A stretch of 9,751 nucleotides of DNA from Chloroflexota bacterium. Lineage in GTDB: Bacteria > Chloroflexota > UBA6077. The stretch spans positions 1-9,751 of the forward strand of contig JAJZQR010000198.1 in NCBI GenBank assembly GCA_021806765.1, given 5' to 3'. A model generated the notes under the pieces. The model was not told the origin of the DNA. It worked only from the letters and a program-made list of their open reading frames with translations, and made no database searches. Position numbers and translations under genes: made by a program. Positions within the stretch are counted from its first letter, which is position 1; each line of letters begins with the position of its first letter. Below are positions 1 to 8,732 of the stretch, piece by piece.

Positions 1-257
1 AGCGGGTCCCCTGCCCGCGTATGGCCTTCTCTCCCGACCGCTTCGATGCGTTGGCGAGCCTCTGCCGGCAGAGGGAGGCCCGAGGGGTCATCTACGTCAG
101 CCAGAAGTTCTGCGACGGCTCCCTGTACGACTTCGCACCCCTGCGGGAGCGACTTCAGCGGGAGGGGATCGCCACTCTGCTGTTGGAGTTGGACGCCTCC
201 GCCGTGACCGTGGGACAGACCAGAACCCGCATCGAAGCCTTCCTGGAGGCCCTGTAG
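1..257 (+). CDS. 2-hydroxyacyl-CoA dehydratase / benzoyl-CoA reductase-type D-component subunit, C-terminal fragment (5' end outside window)
   Basis: This is the last 84 residues of a D-component subunit of the HgdB/BcrC family; the reading frame is open from base 3 to the TAG at 255-257. The fragment shows the family's C-terminal pattern: a Cys shortly after the left edge (RVPCPR), a stretch GVIYVSQKFCD with a second Cys, and the ending GQTRTRIEAFLE, typical of these proteins. In the family such cysteines help bind an iron-sulfur cluster that receives a low-potential electron from the activator. An ATG at 21 is open to translation but lies inside the conserved part, so it is not the true start. 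The next gene begins on the last base of this stop codon, which indicates one transcript and a two-subunit enzyme. The substrate (hydroxyacyl-CoA or aromatic acyl-CoA) cannot be told from this piece. Confidence 0.85.
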   Translation, partial: RVPCPRMAFSPDRFDALASLCRQREARGVIYVSQKFCDGSLYDFAPLRERLQREGIATLLLELDASAVTVGQTRTRIEAFLEAL

Positions 258-1519
258 TGGGTTTCTTCGACGTGCTGCAGGGGACCCTGACCCGAACCCC
301 GTGGCGAGGGATGGTAGTCCCCGCCCTCCAACTGGCCATCTTGAGCCTCCGCTTCGACAGATCCCACCGCTGGAACTCCCAGCGGATGCTGATCGCCTTC
401 GGCCTGCGACTCTCCCTCCGGGCCTTCGAAGGGCGCGATCCGGTGGTGTTCACCAGCCTGCTGACCCCACCGGAGCTGTTGCACAGCCTGGATGCGGTGC
501 CCTTCGGCCTGGAGCCCGCCGGGGCCGGGGCGGCCCTGCTGCAGGTGGCGGCTCTCACGGCCGCTGAGCGGGCCTGGGCGCCGCCCGACGGCTGCACCGT
601 CCTCCGTTCTGCCCTGGGGGTGGCCCACCTGGGACTCCTCCCGAAGCCGTCGGCGGTGGTCTGCACCTCCTGCCTGTGCGATTCCACCCCCAAGGTGTCG
701 GCGGCCGTGGCCAGGATGGAGGGAGTCCCGTTTCACCTCCTGGACGTCCCCTACGAGGACTCACCCGAGGCGGTGGCCTACCTGGCGGACCAGATGAAGC
801 GGGTGGCCGGGGAGTTGGCGGAGGTGTTCGGGCGCCCGTTCCGGCCGGAGAGGATGGCCGAAGCCATCGAGACGTCCAACCGGACTCGCAGCCACCTGCT
901 GGCCATCAACGACCTGCGAAGAAGCCACCCCGGGCTGCTGGATTCCACCTTCGCTCAGGACTTCGTCTACGCCCTCAGCCTGCTCCTGGGCAGTCCCGAG
1001 GGGGCGGTCCTCTTCCAGTCCTACCACCGGGAGTTGGAGGAGGCGGCACGATCGCACCCAAGGGCGGCCGGCGGACCTCGGCTGTTGTGGCTGCATCTGC
1101 TGCCATACTACCGGCACGGCTTCCTGGAGGTGGCGGAGAGGGCGGGCGCGACGATCGTCTTCGAGGAGTTGAACCGGCTTTTCTGGGACGAGATGGACCC
1201 CCAGCGTCCCTGGGAGAGTCTGGCACGCCGCTGCCTTGGACACCCCTGGAACGGGCCCCTGGAGAGGCGGCTGGCGGGGATCCGGGACCTGGCGCGCCGG
1301 TTTCGGGTGGGTGGCGCCGTTCACTTCTCTCATCACGGTTGCCGGCACAGCTGGGGAGCTGGCAGGGCTCTGCGAGACGCCCTGGCCGAGGTGGGAATCC
1401 CTTTCCTGGAGTTGGAGGGCGATCTGGTCGACCCGCGGGAACGGGCGGGCGGGCAGCACGCCACGCGGCTGGAGGCTTTCATCGAGACGCTCGATCCAGG
1501 ACGCAGGGCTGACCGCTGA
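257..1519 (+). CDS. 2-hydroxyacyl-CoA dehydratase / benzoyl-CoA reductase-type D-component subunit
   Basis: The 420-residue product is a complete second subunit of the same family, about the usual length. It starts with GTG in a TAGTG overlap with the previous stop, with GGAGG at 245-249 seven bases upstream. Visible family features are a segment around residues 62-80 (DPVVFTSLLTPPELLHSLDAVPF), Cys113, a Cys-dense motif CTSCLCDSTPK with Cys136, Cys139 and Cys141, the motif around Cys362 (FSHHGCRHS), and the C-terminal GQHATRLEAFIETL at 399-412. By family knowledge the two D subunits each bind a [4Fe-4S] cluster and take one electron from the activator to drive radical dehydration or ring reduction of a CoA thioester. 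CTSCLC has more cysteines than I remember for this position. The enzyme should be cytoplasmic and oxygen-sensitive. The exact substrate is not inferable; neighbouring metabolic genes are missing. Confidence 0.85.
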   Translation: MGFFDVLQGTLTRTPWRGMVVPALQLAILSLRFDRSHRWNSQRMLIAFGLRLSLRAFEGRDPVVFTSLLTPPELLHSLDAVPFGLEPAGAGAALLQVAALTAAERAWAPPDGCTVLRSALGVAHLGLLPKPSAVVCTSCLCDSTPKVSAAVARMEGVPFHLLDVPYEDSPEAVAYLADQMKRVAGELAEVFGRPFRPERMAEAIETSNRTRSHLLAINDLRRSHPGLLDSTFAQDFVYALSLLLGSPEGAVLFQSYHRELEEAARSHPRAAGGPRLLWLHLLPYYRHGFLEVAERAGATIVFEELNRLFWDEMDPQRPWESLARRCLGHPWNGPLERRLAGIRDLARRFRVGGAVHFSHHGCRHSWGAGRALRDALAEVGIPFLELEGDLVDPRERAGGQHATRLEAFIETLDPGRRADR

Positions 1520-1530
1520 GATGCGCCTTA

Positions 1531-1558
1531 CTCAGTCCTCAGTCCTCAGTCCTCAGTC
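1531..1558. repeat. Four perfect tandem copies of the 7-mer CTCAGTC
   Basis: Four uninterrupted copies of CTCAGTC lie in the 60-base gap between the dehydratase subunit and its activator. The last copy runs into CTGACTGC, making a small inverted repeat, CAGTC-CT-GACTG, at 1554-1565 just before the activator's ribosome binding site. The copy number could vary by slippage and change the leader of the activator gene. There are no spacers, so this is not a CRISPR array. Confidence 0.9.
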
Positions 1559-1566
1559 CTGACTGC

Positions 1567-1574
1567 GGAGGAGG
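1567..1574 (+). promoter_or_regulatory. Strong ribosome binding site of the activator gene
   Basis: GGAGGAGG lies five bases before the ATG at 1580. It fixes the start of the activator and sits directly after the CTCAGTC repeat and its small inverted repeat, so any structure formed there could hide it. Confidence 0.75.
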
Positions 1575-1579
1575 TTCGT

Positions 1580-2383
1580 ATGGCGGTCGGGGACGGACGT
1601 CTGGCGGCCGGAATCGACGTGGGATCGGTCTCATCGGAGGCGGTGCTGCTGGCAGGGGACCAGATCCTGGCTGCGGTTGCGCTGCCGACCGGGGCTAACG
1701 GGCGCGTTGCCGGGGAGAGGGTGCTGGAGTCGGCCCTGCGTCGGGTCGGGGCCGCGAGACAGGAGCTAGCCTTCGTCGTGGCCACCGGGTATGGCCGGAA
1801 GGGGGTGGGGCTGGCCCACCGGGCTGTCACCGAGATCACCTGCCACGCCCGTGGTGCCCGCTACCTGATGCCCGACGCGCAGACCGTCATCGACATCGGT
1901 GGCCAGGACAGCAAGGTGATCCGAGTGGACGGCGGGGGGACGGTCGTGGACTTCGTCATGAACGATCGTTGTGCCGCCGGCACCGGGCGCTTCCTGGAGG
2001 TGATGGCTCGGGCCCTGGAAGTCCAGTTGGAGCAGCTGGCCGAGTTGTCGCGCCGAGCCTCTCGCACTGCCTCCATCAGCAGCACCTGCACAGTCTTCGC
2101 CGAATCGGAGGTGGTGTCGCTGGTGGCGGAGGGGGTGCCTCGGGAGGAGATCGTCTCGGGGTTGCACGCGTCGGTGGCCGAGCGGATCTACGGCATGGTG
2201 CAGCGTTTGACCCTCGTTCCCCCGGTAGTGATGACCGGTGGGGTGGCCCACAACGCCGGAGTGGTGCTGGCCATCGAGGAGCGGCTGGGTTGCCGGGTGG
2301 AGGTGGTCCCCGAGCCTCACTTGGTGGGGGCCCTGGGAGCGGCCCTGATCGCCGCGGAGATGATGGCCAGGCCGGCCTCGTAG
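1580..2383 (+). CDS. Acyl-CoA dehydratase activator, component A (BadF/BadG/BcrA/HgdC-type ATPase)
   Basis: The 267-residue protein is a textbook-size activator of the ASKHA ATPase fold. Phosphate loop 1 is GIDVGSVSSEAV (11-22), phosphate loop 2 is DIGGQDSK (105-112), and the adenosine region is MTGGVAHNAG (218-227). Cys131 in NDRCAAGTGRFLE and Cys170 in SSTCTVFAESEV correspond to the two cysteines through which, in this family, each monomer helps hold one [4Fe-4S] cluster at the homodimer interface. ATP hydrolysis drives transfer of a low-potential electron from this cluster to the dehydratase. Directly following the two D-component subunits on the same strand, it is their likely partner. 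In the classical glutamate-fermentation operon the activator comes first; here it comes last. The start is supported by the GGAGGAGG upstream. Confidence 0.93.
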   Translation: MAVGDGRLAAGIDVGSVSSEAVLLAGDQILAAVALPTGANGRVAGERVLESALRRVGAARQELAFVVATGYGRKGVGLAHRAVTEITCHARGARYLMPDAQTVIDIGGQDSKVIRVDGGGTVVDFVMNDRCAAGTGRFLEVMARALEVQLEQLAELSRRASRTASISSTCTVFAESEVVSLVAEGVPREEIVSGLHASVAERIYGMVQRLTLVPPVVMTGGVAHNAGVVLAIEERLGCRVEVVPEPHLVGALGAALIAAEMMARPAS

Positions 2384-2983: not shown

Positions 2984-3562
2984 CTAGCAACCCATGATCT
3001 GAACAGCTACCTCCCTGGTCCTCGCCCGGTCCAGTTCCACCAGGAAGAGCCGCTGCCAGCGGCCGACCTGCAGGTAGCCGTTGATCACCGGTATGGTCTC
3101 GCTGGTGGAGAGGAGGAGATGCTGGCAGTGGGAATGGGCGTTAGGGGACTCATCCTCTTCCATGTTGACGTAACGCACGATGAAGTTGTTGTGATAGTAA
3201 TCCCGATCCTCCGGACAGATTTCCCGGAGGAACCTCTCCATGTCTTTGATCAGTTCGGGCTCATGCTCGTTGATCTTGATGGCCGCGGTAGTGTGGCGCG
3301 AGTATGCGGTGACGAGGCCGTTGGTAATGCCGGCAACGGTCACCACGTGGGCGACGTCGTCGGTGATGTCTATGAACTGCGGCCCCCGCTCCGTCTGGTA
3401 GCGCAGGACCGTTGTGGAAACCCGCAGCAATCCCTCGGCCAGATACGACTTGACCACCGGCGGCCGATGGCCTTCCGGAGGCTCGGCCAAGGCTACCTTC
3501 GCTGTCGGCGCCTCTTGCCGGTGAGCGTTGCCGTTGCGTTGGGGGTCCGGGGGCACACCCAT
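2984..3562 (-). CDS. yjbQ: YjbQ / UPF0047 family protein, coupled to the diterpene cyclase gene
   Basis: The chosen start gives 192 residues. The core, from about residue 37 to the end, is a full UPF0047 domain: FIDIT (63-67), SRHTTAAIKINEHEP (88-102) with the conserved His, SPNAHSHCQHLLLSTSETIP (139-158), and the ending GRWQRLFLVELDRAR with VQIMG. E. coli YjbQ has been reported to have weak thiamine-phosphate synthase activity, but the true role of the family is unsettled. I chose the ATG at 3562 because a perfect GGAGGTGA (3568-3575) lies five bases upstream; an ATG at 3577 would lie inside that site, and the frame stays open to 3706 without a better start. Residues 1-36 are an extra, Pro- and charge-rich tail not found in the usual 130-140-residue proteins. 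The gene starts five bases after the cyclase stop, so coupled translation and a link with diterpene metabolism are likely, though the link is inference. Confidence 0.88.
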   Translation of the reverse strand: MGVPPDPQRNGNAHRQEAPTAKVALAEPPEGHRPPVVKSYLAEGLLRVSTTVLRYQTERGPQFIDITDDVAHVVTVAGITNGLVTAYSRHTTAAIKINEHEPELIKDMERFLREICPEDRDYYHNNFIVRYVNMEEDESPNAHSHCQHLLLSTSETIPVINGYLQVGRWQRLFLVELDRARTREVAVQIMGC

Positions 3563-3567
3563 CTCGG

Positions 3568-3575
3568 TCACCTCC
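3568..3575 (-). promoter_or_regulatory. Ribosome binding site of yjbQ overlapping the cyclase stop codon
   Basis: On the minus strand GGAGGTGA forms the last codons of the cyclase gene, its final TGA being the stop. It sits five bases before the ATG of yjbQ at 3562. Ribosomes finishing the cyclase therefore stop right on the yjbQ initiation site, which supports translational coupling and decides the start. Confidence 0.8.
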
Positions 3576-5187
3576 ATCTGAACTCCAGTCCCCGTTGCGT
3601 CCCGCTCCTGGTGCTTGCCAGCACCCTCGGTTCTTGTAGCCTGCGGTAGGCCGTGCGAGCCGCTTGGATTGCCGCCCGCACCACCAGGACTGGAGTGTAG
3701 AGACACTTATCGATCCACATGGGTGGGAAGAGGGACGCGGGGGCAGACTGGTCCGTCGGGACAGCGTTGCGCAGGTAACGGAGGCCTGCCGCGCACCGTT
3801 GGCGGTCGCGCTCAGGCACCCTGTCGGGAGTATCCGCCGCGAGGGCCAGGACGGCGTAGGCCGTCTCTTCCGCCGTCGGCACACCGTAGAAGCCCCAGGA
3901 TCCGTCAGGATTCTGCGTTTGGCGGAGCCAATCCCGTGATTGCTGCACCAGGGGCTCCATGCGCTTGAGTTGATCGGGCGGCAGGAGGCTAAGGATGGGC
4001 AGGGCGTGGGCGGTCGCGTAGTAGGGCGAGATGTGCCACTTGTCGTACCAGAAGAGGCCGCCTACCCGCTGGTCTATCAGGTAGTCCAGAAGACGGTCTA
4101 CGGTGCCGTGGAGCTGTCGGTATCCCGGGACCCTCAGCAGCGCGTGCAGCACGTGGAGGTTGACTCCCACGGAGGAGTGGCGTTCGTGGGGGAAGCTGGC
4201 GAAGTAACCATCCTTCGTCGCGAAGCCCTGCAGCACGTTCGGGTCTACCGGTTCCCCCAGGTCGTGCAGCAGCAGGAGCGCCACGGCGGTGTCGTCGGCA
4301 TCGGGAATAGGGAAAGTCGGGGACAGGCTGACGCCGCCGGCCTGCAGGGCTGAACGCAGAGCCGTCCGCTCGCCGGGGCTGAGCAGCAGGGCAGCAGGAA
4401 CGCTGGCCAGGAACAGGTGATAGGCGGCCCACAGCAGTTCGAAGGTCTCGCATGGGTGCAACACCGGTGCCGTGGACCCGCCGGCGTGGGCCAGACTCGC
4501 CTCCAGATAGCTGAGAGCCCGAGGATCCCTGCTCTGAGCGAAGTAAAAGGCCGTAGCTGCGGGCGAGTTTCCTATGGCCCCGTTCCCTCCCTGAGCGGCT
4601 CGGAGGCCTGCGGGGTCCGCCTGGTCCCCCAGGAACTCCAGGGAGTGGACCACCGTGGTCCGCGGAGAGTAGAGGGCGCTCGAAGGGATGAGCCGCAGCT
4701 TCTCCGCCCGCTGCTGTGCATAGATGTCCAAGTGGGGGGGCACAGGCACCCTGGCCTTTTGGGCTCGCTGCACCAGGGTCGGCAGGAGAAGCTCGAAACC
4801 CACCAACTCGATCGGCTCGGTGGCCAGCAGATGTCCGCGCTGCCAGAGGTAGCGGGTGCCGGCGGCAATGCACTCCCGGTCGGTGGAGCGGTGCCCGAAC
4901 CTGGCCAGCGGTGCCAGGGCGGCCAGAGTACACAGGAGTCGATCGTGCTCGTAGCGGATGGAGCCTCCCCAGCTTCCGTCCGGCCACTGGTTCTCCACCA
5001 GCCATTGCAGTGCCGTGGGGAAGCTGGAACTGTTCTCTTGGCCCTGCGCAGGCACCCCGGCCAGCCATGCCGTGTCGTAGGCTGTGCCGGCGATGCCCGG
5101 ACGGGCGTCGGGCTCTGCGAGCAAATCGACTGCGAGTCGCCCGCGACCCTGTGCTTCAGTCACGGCTGTTTCCCGTTGCCCCGACAT
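3568..5187 (-). CDS. Class II diterpene cyclase (copalyl/kolavenyl/halimadienyl diphosphate synthase type)
   Basis: The 539-residue protein has the features of bacterial class II diterpene cyclases, which protonate geranylgeranyl diphosphate and close it to a bicyclic diphosphate. Visible marks are AYDTAWLA (36-43) near the N-terminus, QW-type repeats QWPDGSWG (67-74) and QNPDGSWG (425-432), TVVHSLEFLG (178-187), GNSPAATAFYF (206-216), the catalytic acid motif PDADDTA (295-301, DxDD at 296-299), WYDKWHISPYY (380-390) and a late WIDKCLYTPVLVVRA. The DxDD aspartate is the proton donor. No class I DDxxD motif is seen, so the diphosphate should be kept. The length (about 500-540 in this group) and the AYDTAW/SPxATA motifs separate it from squalene-hopene cyclase (about 630). 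It starts seven bases after the class I synthase stop, with AGGG nearby as ribosome binding site. The precise product skeleton cannot be predicted. Confidence 0.93.
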   Translation of the reverse strand: MSGQRETAVTEAQGRGRLAVDLLAEPDARPGIAGTAYDTAWLAGVPAQGQENSSSFPTALQWLVENQWPDGSWGGSIRYEHDRLLCTLAALAPLARFGHRSTDRECIAAGTRYLWQRGHLLATEPIELVGFELLLPTLVQRAQKARVPVPPHLDIYAQQRAEKLRLIPSSALYSPRTTVVHSLEFLGDQADPAGLRAAQGGNGAIGNSPAATAFYFAQSRDPRALSYLEASLAHAGGSTAPVLHPCETFELLWAAYHLFLASVPAALLLSPGERTALRSALQAGGVSLSPTFPIPDADDTAVALLLLHDLGEPVDPNVLQGFATKDGYFASFPHERHSSVGVNLHVLHALLRVPGYRQLHGTVDRLLDYLIDQRVGGLFWYDKWHISPYYATAHALPILSLLPPDQLKRMEPLVQQSRDWLRQTQNPDGSWGFYGVPTAEETAYAVLALAADTPDRVPERDRQRCAAGLRYLRNAVPTDQSAPASLFPPMWIDKCLYTPVLVVRAAIQAARTAYRRLQEPRVLASTRSGTQRGLEFRWR

Positions 5188-5194
5188 CTCAGCC

Positions 5195-6223
5195 CTAGCT
5201 CCCCTGCGCAGCGAAGGTGTGGTAGTCGTGATGGGTGTAAAAGTCGCAGACGAAGCGAGCGATATCCGCTGTGGCCGCTTCCGGCCGTCCCGTCTGGGTG
5301 GAAGCCCGGCTTTGCAGTTCCTCCAATCGGTTCAGCCCGCCGGCGATGTCTGCCCGCACGCGGCCCTCCGCCTGTCGATGAGCCTCCTCGGCGCTCAGCC
5401 CCGCCTTCTGGAGCCCCTGTTCCAGGATTACCAGGGCGTTGATCTTTCCCTCACCCACCTCCTTCCAATAGGTCTGCAGGTCGTTGGCGAGGCGAATGCA
5501 GGTAGAGGTGATCCGTTCCATGGTGCGGAGGTGATCCACATGCTCGGGGGTAGAGGGATCGTCGGAGGTGATGATGGCCGCCCACACGTAAGGAGGGCCC
5601 CCGACGCTGTAGAGTCCTGTCTCGACGTACTCCTCGTAGGAGGGGAGCGAGGCGGTGCGGTCCCGCCGGTAGCCCAGCCGCCAGTGGTCCTCCCTGATCA
5701 TTCCATCGATAGTCCCGCCCAGGGCATCGGCCCAGCGGGCGCCCAGGGATTCGAAGAGGGGATAGCGGGCCAGAACATCGCGGACGTCGGCCAGGGCCGC
5801 TGCCAGACTGTCGCCAGGCGGTGGGGACTCCCGATAGTGGGCGATGGCTTTGTAGCGCTCGGCCCGAAGCGTCAAGTCGGCCCGAGACAGCTGTTCCTCA
5901 TCGAAGACGTCGTCCAGGGCGAAGACCCAGAGGCTCAAACTTGCCGTCGCGACGAGGGCATCCGCGTCGCAGAAAGAGGCCGCAGCCGCAACCGACAGGG
6001 ATAGGGGCTCTACTCGGATCCGCCTGATCGGAGGATAGCGGGCTGCCCATCGGTCCAGCTTCGGAGAGGTTTGGGTGCTCAAGTCGAAAATGCGTAGCTG
6101 TTCCGCGGTATCCAGAGACTCCAGGAAACGGCTACGCAATCCCGCCCACGGAGAGGCTTCTGCCTGCGTCTCCGGCGGACTGGACTGTTGTGCTGACGGA
6201 GTGTGCTTCCCCGGCGATGGCAT
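5195..6223 (-). CDS. Class I terpene synthase (probable diterpene synthase acting on the class II product)
   Basis: This 342-residue protein fits the single-domain bacterial class I terpene synthase family. The first metal-binding motif is DDVFD (104-108) within LWVFALDDVFDEE, and the second (NSE) is NDLQTYWKE (247-255), with Asn247, Thr251 and Glu255 as the expected magnesium ligands. These enzymes ionise the allylic diphosphate and quench the cation with water or by proton loss. The first 30 residues are low in complexity and probably disordered. In the segment EYVETGLYSVGG (198-209) I see Gly203 where an Arg acting as diphosphate sensor is usually expected. GGGAGGGG lies just before the ATG at 6223. 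Its position directly upstream of a class II cyclase strongly suggests it uses that enzyme's bicyclic C20 diphosphate, as in the kolavelool pair of Herpetosiphon aurantiacus; the product itself is unknown. Confidence 0.93.
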   Translation of the reverse strand: MPSPGKHTPSAQQSSPPETQAEASPWAGLRSRFLESLDTAEQLRIFDLSTQTSPKLDRWAARYPPIRRIRVEPLSLSVAAAASFCDADALVATASLSLWVFALDDVFDEEQLSRADLTLRAERYKAIAHYRESPPPGDSLAAALADVRDVLARYPLFESLGARWADALGGTIDGMIREDHWRLGYRRDRTASLPSYEEYVETGLYSVGGPPYVWAAIITSDDPSTPEHVDHLRTMERITSTCIRLANDLQTYWKEVGEGKINALVILEQGLQKAGLSAEEAHRQAEGRVRADIAGGLNRLEELQSRASTQTGRPEAATADIARFVCDFYTHHDYHTFAAQGS

Positions 6224-6366: not shown

Positions 6367-6380
6367 GCCCGGCGGCGGGC

Positions 6381-6406
6381 GTGAACATGCCAGAGGGCAT
6401 GTTCAC
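6381..6406. terminator. Perfect 11-bp hairpin in the gap between the PHP gene and the diterpene operon
   Basis: GTGAACATGCC (6381-6391) and GGCATGTTCAC (6396-6406) are exact complements around a four-base loop AGAG. The hairpin lies 42 bases beyond the stop of the PHP gene in the direction of transcription and 158 bases before the class I synthase start. A second small stem, GGGG-GTGT-CCCC, follows at 6407-6418. The position suits termination of the PHP transcript, but no T-run follows on the minus strand; a regulator site with dyad symmetry upstream of the terpene genes is the alternative. Confidence 0.5.
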
Positions 6407-6447
6407 GGGGGTGTCCCCAGAACCATAAAAGACTCTGTGATAGCGAT

Positions 6448-7276: not shown

Positions 7277-8581
7277 CTACTGCTGGCTGGAGGATTGCTC
7301 GGCGACGGTCTTCACGTGGACCCTCAAGGCCTGATTGGCCCAATCCGGCCAAAGGGTGATCTGAGCGGGTTTGCTGAAGCCGGTCATGGCTGCCAGGGCC
7401 TTCTCGGCATCGGCCAGCCTCTTGCCGCGGACGGCGGCCGCGACCGCCCCACTGTCCACGTTACGCTTCAGAACGCCGTCGGCCTTCACCCGCAGGGTCA
7501 TGTGCTGGCCCTCGGCGTTGACGACTGCCGGCGGGTCCATCTTCGGATCCCCCACCTCTTTGAAGTCCCGCGGGACATCCTGATTCCACAGGGACATGAC
7601 CAACCGGTTGAAGTCGTCGTTGTTGTAAGCGAGACCGGTCAACTTGATCTCCATCGAGCCCCCGAGGGTATCCGCGGTGTCCCCAATGTTGTGATCGTAA
7701 CGCTCGCTGATGATCTGCGTCTGGATGCTCTCCTCAGGCATCGACTCGTCGCTCTTCATCTGGCTCTTCAGTTGAGCCGTGGCCTGGGTGGTAGCATCCT
7801 TTATCATCTGCTGCCGCAGCGCATCCCGCAACTGAAGCGTGATCTGGGCACCTGGCTGGAACCCTGAAGAGCTGTCGCTGGGCTGGTTGGGCGGCGGTGC
7901 CACCTGCTTGACGTTGATGGAGTCGTTGACCTGGACCGTGGTCTCCACCACGTGTCCGGAGATGCGTTGTGCCGTGGTATCGACGCGGGGCCCTCCGATC
8001 TCCACCAGCACCTCTACGTTGCGGGCCATGGACTGGGTCTCCGGATAGACCGTGACCACGGACACCGGCACAGCCAGGTAGGCCATGGCCATCAGGATGG
8101 TCGCCAACATCCCTCCCATCAGAAGCCCCCATCGGCTGACACCTACGGCGGGTGTGAACTCCTCCGGATCGGTGAAGGAGACGACCTCCGACCGGTCAGG
8201 CGCTGGTATCCTGCTGCCGTAGTAGGCTCTCATGGAGCTGTAGACGTGGCGGAAACCATTCTCCCGGGCGAAACCGCGGCGGTTGATGTCGTCGCTGACG
8301 ATGATCAGATCCAGCCCCAGCTCCCGCTGGAGGCGGCGGAGAACCCGGAACTCCAGACCATCGCGCAGGGTCTTGATGTTGGCGGGCAGGACCAATACCA
8401 CCCGCGGGAGTCTGGTGCTTTCCAGTTTGCTCCTGACGGAAGTCAGATCGTCGTCTCGGTCGACTTCGATAACGGTTTCGTGCTGGGGTCCATGGCCGGC
8501 CAGAGCATCAACATAAGTCCTCATATCGTCCCCTGAGCCCAGGCGGACGACATCATCTTGGCTTTGTCTGAAGGCCGACAT
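7277..8581 (-). CDS. Single-pass membrane protein with baseplate J/gp47-like outer part
   Basis: From the ATG at 8581 the product has 434 residues. Residues about 34-125 look like an alpha/beta domain: an ETVIEVDRDDDLTSVR segment, then VVLVLPAN and DLIIVSDDINRR, as often found at the front of these Chloroflexota proteins. One hydrophobic segment follows at about 151-180 (GLLMGGMLATILMAMAYLAV), and the remaining 250 residues should lie outside the membrane. The C-terminal block with VRGKRLADAEKALAAM and ITLWPDWANQALRVHV resembles the ending of proteins annotated 'baseplate J/gp47 family', a label by distant similarity that does not mean a phage origin; no other phage gene is near. Function is unknown, perhaps cell-envelope related. 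GAGGG five bases upstream supports the 8581 start; an ATG at 8524 is also possible, and the frame extends to a TTG at 8641. Confidence 0.75.
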   Translation of the reverse strand: MSAFRQSQDDVVRLGSGDDMRTYVDALAGHGPQHETVIEVDRDDDLTSVRSKLESTRLPRVVLVLPANIKTLRDGLEFRVLRRLQRELGLDLIIVSDDINRRGFARENGFRHVYSSMRAYYGSRIPAPDRSEVVSFTDPEEFTPAVGVSRWGLLMGGMLATILMAMAYLAVPVSVVTVYPETQSMARNVEVLVEIGGPRVDTTAQRISGHVVETTVQVNDSINVKQVAPPPNQPSDSSSGFQPGAQITLQLRDALRQQMIKDATTQATAQLKSQMKSDESMPEESIQTQIISERYDHNIGDTADTLGGSMEIKLTGLAYNNDDFNRLVMSLWNQDVPRDFKEVGDPKMDPPAVVNAEGQHMTLRVKADGVLKRNVDSGAVAAAVRGKRLADAEKALAAMTGFSKPAQITLWPDWANQALRVHVKTVAEQSSSQQ

Positions 8582-8732
8582 GAATTCCCTCGAGTGGATG
8601 ATTTCTGGGGACTGATCCCTCGAGCCTCCCTGGAAAGCCAACCGTTCGGCTACCCCTCGGAACCAGTCCTACGGGGGAAATGCAAGAAGCGGACCTATCC
8701 GGGGAGTGCTCTGGCACCGTGATTGTGATGGG

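Follow-up and report, generated by a model that had tools for sequence, protein, structure and literature searches.

A predicted bicyclic-diterpene operon of Chloroflexota with a YjbQ gene, some of whose relatives are linked to isoprenoid enzymes

Proteins of the UPF0047/YjbQ family have, to our knowledge, no settled physiological role, which raises the question of what such a protein does directly behind a pair of terpene synthases. This arrangement is found in a stretch of 9,751 nucleotides (in the following called the window), part of a 30.9-kb contig from a Chloroflexota bacterium. On its reverse strand, a class I terpene synthase gene (positions 5195–6223, 342 amino acids) is followed after 7 bases (5188–5194) by a class II diterpene cyclase gene (3568–5187, 539 amino acids) and then, after another 5 bases (3563–3567), by a gene for a YjbQ/UPF0047 protein of the Cys type (2984–3562), which has 192 amino acids when counted from the ATG at 3562. 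The open reading frames and direct reading of the gaps confirmed the three genes, coordinates and spacings given in a preliminary description, and the motifs that it had named (DDVFD, NDLQTYWKE and DADD) are present as claimed. Chance reading frames are excluded because the best homologues share 73% (class I), 77% (class II) and 73% (YjbQ) identity.

The YjbQ frame is open further 5′ of the ATG, up to a GTG at 3706. A GGAGG lies 8 bases 5′ of the ATG and overlaps the stop codon of the class II gene, and this position in the sequence suggests that the two genes are translationally coupled. A promoter scan of the window found none (0.4 expected), and a terminator scan found six (1.9 expected), none of them directly 3′ of YjbQ. 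In line with the preliminary description, the Pfam scan of ten window ORFs detected no prenyltransferase or oxidase domain in this part of the contig.

The class II protein matches PF13243 (SQHop_cyclase_C) at 4.5e-15. Its catalytic acid motif of the DxDD type, DADD at residues 296–299, aligns with the DCDT of the solved structure 6vpt, and D296, D298 and D299 are invariant across 23 aligned class II proteins. This structure is also the best PDB match (3e-56, 194 bits, over residues 22–510); it is named only “Cyclase”, but we take it to be the tuberculosinyl diphosphate synthase of Mycobacterium tuberculosis, a diterpene cyclase. Further class II cyclases follow among the PDB matches, of which 5bp8, 3pya and 9b99 are named as diterpene cyclases. 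The squalene-hopene cyclase 2sqc reached just 61 bits compared with 194 for 6vpt, so by bit score the window protein is closer to the diterpene cyclases than to the squalene-hopene cyclases. Many close homologues carry the JGI name halimadienyl-diphosphate synthase, a label based on homology only; our literature search, which reached few subscription papers, returned nothing on halimadienyl in Chloroflexota. The class II alignment had no match among viral contigs, and among plasmid records it had only distant matches below 60% identity (136 records, mostly from rhizobia and Streptomyces).

The class I protein matches the Pfam families PF19086 (Terpene_syn_C_2; 5.9e-22) and PF03936 (1.1e-9), and its best PDB profile match is 7e4n, the bacterial synthase Sat1646 (1.6e-21). 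Both metal-binding motifs are present: DDVFD at residues 104–108 corresponds to DDxxD/E, and NDLQTYWKE at residues 247–255 to the NSE/DTE motif (N,D)Dxx(S,T)xxxE. Across 20 aligned class I proteins D104, D105 and D108 as well as N247, D248 and E255 are invariant, while residue 251 varies between S and T, with T in the window and S in most relatives.

The best solved relatives, 6vpt for class II and Sat1646 for class I, support the diterpene reading that had been given for the pair. Alternatively, the pair may use farnesyl diphosphate and yield a drimane-type sesquiterpene instead of a diterpene. Among the PDB matches of the class II protein, 7xkx, presumably a drimenyl diphosphate synthase, ranks second at 133 bits and would fit this, as would the five NCBIfam terpene synthase models matched weakly by the class I protein, four of which are sesquiterpene-type by name, although all matches fall far below the cut-off. 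With the presumed tuberculosinyl enzyme closer at 194 bits, and with the halimadienyl name, a homology label, on many close homologues, we regard a sesquiterpene product as improbable.

In the diterpene pathway that we favor, the class II cyclase would protonate geranylgeranyl diphosphate via its DxDD motif to form a bicyclic diphosphate of the labdane, halimane or clerodane type. The class I synthase would then ionize this intermediate with Mg2+ held by the DDxxD and NSE motifs, and release a diterpene hydrocarbon or alcohol.

The preliminary description had placed such pairs in a few bacteria; we found an abundant family instead, and the named homologues are from Chloroflexota. At E ≤ 1e-30, the class II alignment matched 40 of 400 genomes of the phylum. 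A class I gene followed by a class II gene occurs in seven relatives (L001, L003–L006, L050 and L051). When genome contigs were scanned, eight loci contained class I, five of them also class II (L001, L003–L006) and none YjbQ.

In the survey for the three-gene order that had been proposed earlier, not one of the 42 class II loci examined, many of which are cut by contig ends, has YjbQ next to the cyclase gene. The neighbors were examined for loci other than L243–L247 (class of G006). For these 42 loci, the order class I, class II, YjbQ is therefore rejected as a general rule, and the contiguous three-gene order is rare. Searched with the class II alignment, the 400 phylum genomes, an order and a class group of G152, an order group of G002, the class of G032 (3 genomes) and the class of G006 (298 genomes) yielded no relative that reaches the 75% of P0242/P0243. 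P0122 and P0243 both lie on contigs of 9,853 bases, a circumstantial hint at a second contiguous three-gene case.

Two genomes have YjbQ at some distance from the synthases. In G002 (L048), about 4.4 kb with receiver, kinase and GGDEF/EAL genes separate class II from the YjbQ gene downstream, which is tail-to-tail with an IPP isomerase gene. G001 has the end of a kinase gene, GGDEF/EAL, YjbQ and IPP isomerase on a contig (L049) other than that of L001; from gene order alone, L049 may continue L001. We did not count these arrangements as the same operon because the YjbQ tree sets their YjbQ proteins apart from that of the window.

Looking at the neighbors of class II, we unexpectedly found a sensor kinase gene nearby in 29 of the 42 loci. 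Kinase and receiver domains also lie upstream in L116, which we take to be the locus of Herpetosiphon aurantiacus, whereas none were detected in the ten scanned ORFs of the window. Literature searches, again with few subscription papers covered, yielded nothing on terpene synthases together with histidine kinases for diterpenes of Chloroflexi. As a bolder extension, the Chloroflexota diterpenes made by such pairs might be signals that are read or controlled by the adjoining sensor kinases. Kinase and receiver genes that recur next to class II cyclases would also offer a route to the purpose of bacterial diterpenes.

The third protein of the operon belongs to the UPF0047/YjbQ family, with matches to PF01894 (UPF0047; 119.9 bits, cut-off 27; 8.6e-35), to the NCBIfam model TIGR00149 (115.7 bits, cut-off 67.75) and to the structure 2p6h (3.2e-22). 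It keeps the His, Asn, Asp and Glu columns conserved in solved members; compared with 2p6h, the polar residues of HTTAA, NE, HN, NAHxH, G-WQR and D-R are retained and about 11 residues are inserted. The motif of the Cys type, NAHSHC, spans residues 141–146. An AlphaFold model (mean pLDDT 72.6) was poor at residues 122–135 and 138–146 and was left unused because it is weak where the Cys lies. Matches to YjbQ at E ≤ 1e-10 are present in 258 of the 400 Chloroflexota genomes; phage records gave four weak matches of about 30% identity.

The preliminary description had supposed that YjbQ takes part in the pathway. This gained support from YjbQ proteins of the same type that are fused to type-2 IPP isomerase (IDI2) or to polyprenyl synthetase. 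Among all 90 close Chloroflexota loci at E ≤ 5.4e-38, we counted 8 fusions with type-2 IPP isomerase and 21 with polyprenyl synthetase, and 8 more YjbQ genes on the same strand and within 1 kb of squalene/hopanoid-type or polyprenyl synthase genes. Two others are tail-to-tail with IPP isomerase, two have no closer link than a polyprenyl synthase gene on the opposite strand at a distance of about 3 kb, and 49 lack any such isoprenoid gene in the examined stretch. The subtype is thus not exclusively isoprenoid, given the 49 unlinked and the 2 distant cases. None of 20 hand-picked loci with lower-scoring YjbQ showed the link, compared with 37 of the 90 (Fisher p = 1.3e-4, uncorrected for relatedness); for unfused YjbQ alone the difference is not significant (8/61 versus 0/20, p = 0.19). 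No ORFs of the kinds counted here were found in 380 kb of other regions.

Pfam assigned PF01070 plus PF01894 to four of six YjbQ proteins analyzed, PF01894 plus PF00348 to one and UPF0047 alone to one. One IDI2 fusion matches the type-2 IPP isomerase 1vcf (1.2e-76) and, further along, YjbQ structures. Six of the eight IDI2 fusions lie beside squalene/hopanoid-type genes, and a gene of the ubiE/COQ5-type family adjoins nine of the 12 polyprenyl synthase fusions that were laid out. In the YjbQ tree all 29 fusions fall into one clade (98/98) and may therefore represent one to three events. The unfused isoprenoid-linked members appear in several places outside this clade; well-supported branches force only two changes of this label, although the tree shows five. 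The window YjbQ lies outside both the fused clade and the clade of the G001 and G002 proteins. The Cys is equally common in unlinked YjbQ proteins (45/51) and absent from a few fused ones.

YjbQ could also be no more than a bystander. It would then serve a housekeeping function, vitamin-related (thiamin or pyridoxal) or otherwise, and be co-transcribed with the synthase pair by chance. The absence of YjbQ beside class II in the 42 loci and the 49 unlinked loci of the census speak for this, as do findings in E. coli: thiamin phosphate synthase activity was reported for YjbQ (Morett et al. 2008), which reportedly rescues thiE mutants (PMC3091646), and its overexpression is reported to relieve the pyridoxal-phosphate auxotrophy of a pdxB mutant by an unknown route (PMC7954711). 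On the other hand, there are two kinds of in-frame fusions with isoprenoid enzymes, same-strand isoprenoid neighbors elsewhere in the tree and only 5 bases between class II and YjbQ in the window. Moreover, most of the genomes tested (36 of 40) have a ThiE match over the cut-off, an argument against a role in thiamin synthesis alone. This argument does not extend to the IDI2-fused genomes G010, G023 and G069, which have no ThiE match, nor to G001, whose only match lies below the cut-off. Altogether, a bystander seems rather unlikely to us.

YjbQ might instead aid the MEP pathway indirectly, by providing thiamin phosphate for the thiamin-diphosphate-dependent DXS. The reported synthase activity (PMC3091646) would suit this, and DXR was over the cut-off in 39 of the 40 genomes, 38 of which have an isoprenoid-linked YjbQ, so that most of them use the MEP pathway. 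However, DXS passed in only 25 of the same genomes while ThiE passed in 36, the fusions join YjbQ to IPP isomerase and polyprenyl synthase and none to DXS was seen, and a cofactor is required in catalytic amounts only. We consider this possibility very remote.

From the gene order, motifs, homology, fusions and neighborhoods, all observed directly, we infer that the operon probably encodes a bicyclic-diterpene pathway together with an isoprenoid-linked YjbQ enzyme, including the substrates, products and YjbQ reaction proposed here. In this reading, the coupled YjbQ represents a Cys-bearing subtype of UPF0047 and would act as an enzyme in the isoprenoid pathway. Our best guess, by analogy, is that it displaces diphosphate from a prenyl-type diphosphate, by transfer to a nucleophile or by hydrolysis, because the thiamin phosphate synthase activity reported for E. 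coli YjbQ also displaces diphosphate. More tentatively, and with the odds against it, Cys-type YjbQ proteins may include a hitherto unassigned class of isoprenoid enzymes. Their direct substrates would be prenyl diphosphates or products made from these, and they would work alongside the enzymes of diterpene and squalene/hopanoid formation, IPP isomerase and polyprenyl synthase. The window YjbQ would then perform the last diterpene step, either transferring the diterpenyl group to a nucleophile or releasing diphosphate.

The fusions to isoprenoid-pathway enzymes point to a new role for this very common family. Together with the operons, they lead to the prediction that part of the YjbQ subtype belongs to isoprenoid metabolism; our literature search, again covering few subscription papers, found no paper linking YjbQ/UPF0047 with isoprenoids, terpenes or IPP isomerase. 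If true, this would name a missing enzyme or accessory protein for hopanoid, quinone-tail or diterpene biosynthesis.

The O-methylkolavelool cluster of H. aurantiacus (Nakano et al. 2015; PMC9440906) is, like the window, a case of a class II and class I diterpene pair in Chloroflexota. The window differs in having class I first and YjbQ third, and without a methyltransferase in its ten scanned ORFs it does not follow the cluster-type order. That order is class II, class I and SAM methyltransferase, in agreement with L116, where three genes stand in a row, one for a class II cyclase, one of 303 amino acids that has no match in Pfam, and one for a methyltransferase. The class II proteins of the window and of L116 are far apart in the tree. 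In the tuberculosinyl system, whose cyclase (presumably 6vpt) is the best solved relative of the window class II, the partner is a transferase of the cis-prenyltransferase fold that makes tuberculosinyl adenosine, whereas the partners in the window are an alpha-helical class I synthase and YjbQ; no Pfam domain of the former fold was detected in the ten window ORFs. E. coli YjbQ is of the same family and shares the conserved polar columns, but the window protein belongs to a Cys-bearing subtype with close relatives in fusions or operons with isoprenoid genes. The Chloroflexota fusions of YjbQ with IPP isomerase or polyprenyl synthetase are joined instead of separate and do not lie beside diterpene synthases, but they contain the same YjbQ subtype as the window, tied to isoprenoid enzymes.

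On the minus strand the class I terpene synthase gene (5195-6223) is followed head to tail by those for the class II cyclase (3568-5187) and YjbQ (2984-3562), with gaps of 7 and 5 bases, respectively. Direct reading of the ORFs and gaps bore out the coordinates and motifs (DDVFD and NDLQTYWKE in class I, DADD in class II) of the preliminary description. A GGAGG sequence 8 bases before the YjbQ ATG overlaps the class II stop codon which, together with the short gaps, makes coupled translation of class II and YjbQ likely. The Pfam and NCBIfam domain assignments are far above chance; the NSE motif of the class I protein, aligned with its relatives, has T where S is usual. In the interval separating class I from a PHP gene, positions 6380-6407 form an inverted repeat with perfectly matched arms of 12 bases and a loop of 4, possibly a terminator lacking a T tail or an operator. 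Elsewhere in the window, a 454-aa ORF (7277-8641, minus strand) matches no Pfam or NCBIfam model at E≤0.01, and the end of a D-type 2-hydroxyglutaryl-CoA dehydratase gene, a second, complete copy and an acyl-CoA dehydratase activase gene (3-2383, plus strand) hint at an anaerobic host.

The best structural match of the class II protein is 6vpt (3e-56), and with 194 bits to 6vpt versus 61 bits to squalene-hopene cyclase it is much nearer to class II diterpene cyclases. For class I, a profile of 20 proteins matched Sat1646 best (1.6e-21). Protein searches, each scoring about 8,000 candidates, yielded 263 class I and 1135 class II relatives at E≤0.001, so the pair belongs to an abundant family. 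The few relatives with a named organism among the 120 matches listed per synthase were all Chloroflexota. In the class II tree the window protein groups with P0243 and P0242 (100/98) within the Chloroflexota pair family. The order class I then class II is retained in seven loci (L001, L003-L006, L050, L051) and reversed, with a weaker class I match, in L056 and L058. We consider it very probable that the window pair makes a diterpene.

The three-gene order, proposed as a functional unit, did not hold up as a conserved contiguous arrangement in the sequences examined. YjbQ was absent from the sequence examined around 41 of 42 class II loci, several of these stretches ending at contig ends, and in the sole exception, L048, it lies about 4.4 kb downstream. 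The nearest relatives of the window YjbQ (P0122, 73%) and class II (P0243, 77%) are each recorded on one contig only, 9,853 bases long in both instances, which hints at a possible second three-gene case; no class I protein from a 9,853-base contig was among the 120 class I matches listed.

Unexpectedly, most class II loci carry signalling genes, and the window YjbQ occupies the position of the receiver in relatives. At 29/42 loci, counted without regard to kinship, a histidine kinase domain is encoded no more than 3.6 kb from class II and in the same orientation (L003-L006, L048, L050, L051, L055, L056, L058, L062-L067, L098-L105, L112, L114-L117), and 27 of the 29 also show a receiver match at ≤6 kb. 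The arrangements are of at least four kinds: class I-class II-receiver-kinase (L003-L005, L050, L051), class II-kinase-receiver (for example L063), kinase/receivers-class II (L116) and receiver-kinase-class II (L104, L105). In L003, L048 (kinase divided between two ORFs), L063 and L116 the kinase or receiver assignments were borne out by Pfam. As background, twenty hand-placed 19-kb regions, together 380 kb, had 4 kinases, of which genome G203 alone accounts for three. No kinase was found within 3.6 kb at 13/42 loci (L001, L054, L057, L059, L060, L061, L106-L111, L113); among these, L001 has a receiver and a kinase cut by the contig end, and the contig ends at class II in L061 and L106. GGDEF-type matches lie near L054, L057 (GGDEF and HD by Pfam), L059 and L060, three of the four also with an IPP isomerase match. 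No kinase or receiver domain was detected in the ten window ORFs scanned. The frequency of kinases and receivers in varied gene orders suggests that Chloroflexota diterpenes are linked to signalling.

For YjbQ itself, we searched its alignment against 400 Chloroflexota genomes sampled evenly across a larger set. Ten loci were first chosen for long open frames (9/10 fused); the census then took all 90 listed places with E≤5.4e-38 (L068 and L069 with 1.5-kb flanks only), and linkage was scored by blastp against isoprenoid genes from census loci. YjbQ is fused to polyprenyl synthetase, on its N-terminal side, in 21/90 loci (L138, L139, L146, L147, L202-L209, L232-L240) and to type-2 IPP isomerase (IDI2) in 8/90, six of the eight adjoined by squalene/hopanoid-type genes. 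A further 8/90 are unfused but lie on the same strand ≤1 kb from squalene/hopanoid-type or polyprenyl synthase genes; two (G001, G002) are tail-to-tail with IPP isomerase, and in two others a polyprenyl synthase gene lies on the opposite strand at a distance of about 3 kb. No isoprenoid gene was found by blastp in the sequence examined around 49/90. The labels SHC, HpnC, HpnD and HpnE are our own; Pfam assigned the queries to squalene-hopene cyclase, squalene/phytoene synthase (two) and amine oxidase. In six YjbQ proteins Pfam recognized PF01070+PF01894 (4/6), PF01894+PF00348 (1/6) and UPF0047 alone (1/6). Residues 16-345 of one IDI2 fusion match type-2 IPP isomerase 1vcf (1.2e-76), and about 360-500 match solved YjbQ proteins. 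A ubiE/COQ5-type methyltransferase family gene stands beside 9 of the first 12 polyprenyl synthetase fusions, and also at two control loci. Four phage records from human faeces (MT838668.1, MT837887.1, MT835894.1, MT835658.1) gave weak YjbQ-like matches of about 30% identity.

An isoprenoid link was seen at none of 20 hand-chosen control YjbQ loci with lower scores (97-125 bits; long contigs for the most part), and isoprenoid genes at none of twenty 19-kb regions hand-placed on class II contigs of nine genomes, only one of which is also in the census. The fused forms constitute one clade (98/98); the polyprenyl synthetase fusion requires one event, the IPP isomerase fusion one or two, and the unfused neighbourhood five changes, two of them forced by well-supported branches. 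The number of independent events is small, and among unfused loci the contrast is not significant (8/61 linked versus 0/20 controls, p=0.19). The case from fusion is strong and that from neighbourhood suggestive; weighing these restrictions, we regard a functional tie of YjbQ to isoprenoids as probable.

The window YjbQ has a Cys directly after the N-x-H-x-H signature, as do 14/14 close relatives from the protein search, all unfused isoprenoid-neighbour (8/8) and IPP-isomerase-near (2/2) proteins and most fusions (18/21 polyprenyl synthetase, 6/8 IPP isomerase). Because unlinked members carry it too (45/51, including the two with polyprenyl synthase at about 3 kb) and controls do not (0/20), this Cys marks a YjbQ subtype and not the isoprenoid link.

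We tested 40 genomes, 38 with isoprenoid-linked YjbQ (including G001 and G002) and two with the class II family only (G152, G032). DXR was above cut-off in 39/40, HMG-CoA reductase in 3/40 and DXS in only 25/40; these genomes mostly run the MEP pathway. DXR above but DXS not above cut-off was the pattern in G010, G023, G069, G331, G289, G282, G403, G240, G388, G383, G160, G001, G002 and G152; two of these, G160 and G001, encode HMG-CoA reductase too, and G259 has a partial DXS match only. Such genomes may have an alternative or split DXS, or may be incomplete. ThiE was above cut-off in 36/40 genomes, so YjbQ is not the sole possible thiamin phosphate synthase in most; three IDI2-fused genomes (G010, G023, G069) had no ThiE match and that of G001 was below cut-off.

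In the mechanism we consider most likely, class II would turn GGPP that the cell makes elsewhere into a bicyclic diphosphate, class I would strip the diphosphate to give an olefin or alcohol, and YjbQ would act afterwards or in parallel on a prenyl-type diphosphate or the product. Thiamin phosphate synthase displaces diphosphate from an activated carbon, chemistry of the same kind as prenyl transfer, and on this analogy we tentatively guess that YjbQ could be a diphosphate-displacing enzyme. Thiamin phosphate synthase activity is reported for YjbQ in PMC3091646.

In the literature searched, which leaves out most subscription journals, we found no report of YjbQ as partner of a diterpene pair or of its fusions with IPP isomerase or polyprenyl synthase; the class II and class I pair is already known in kind.
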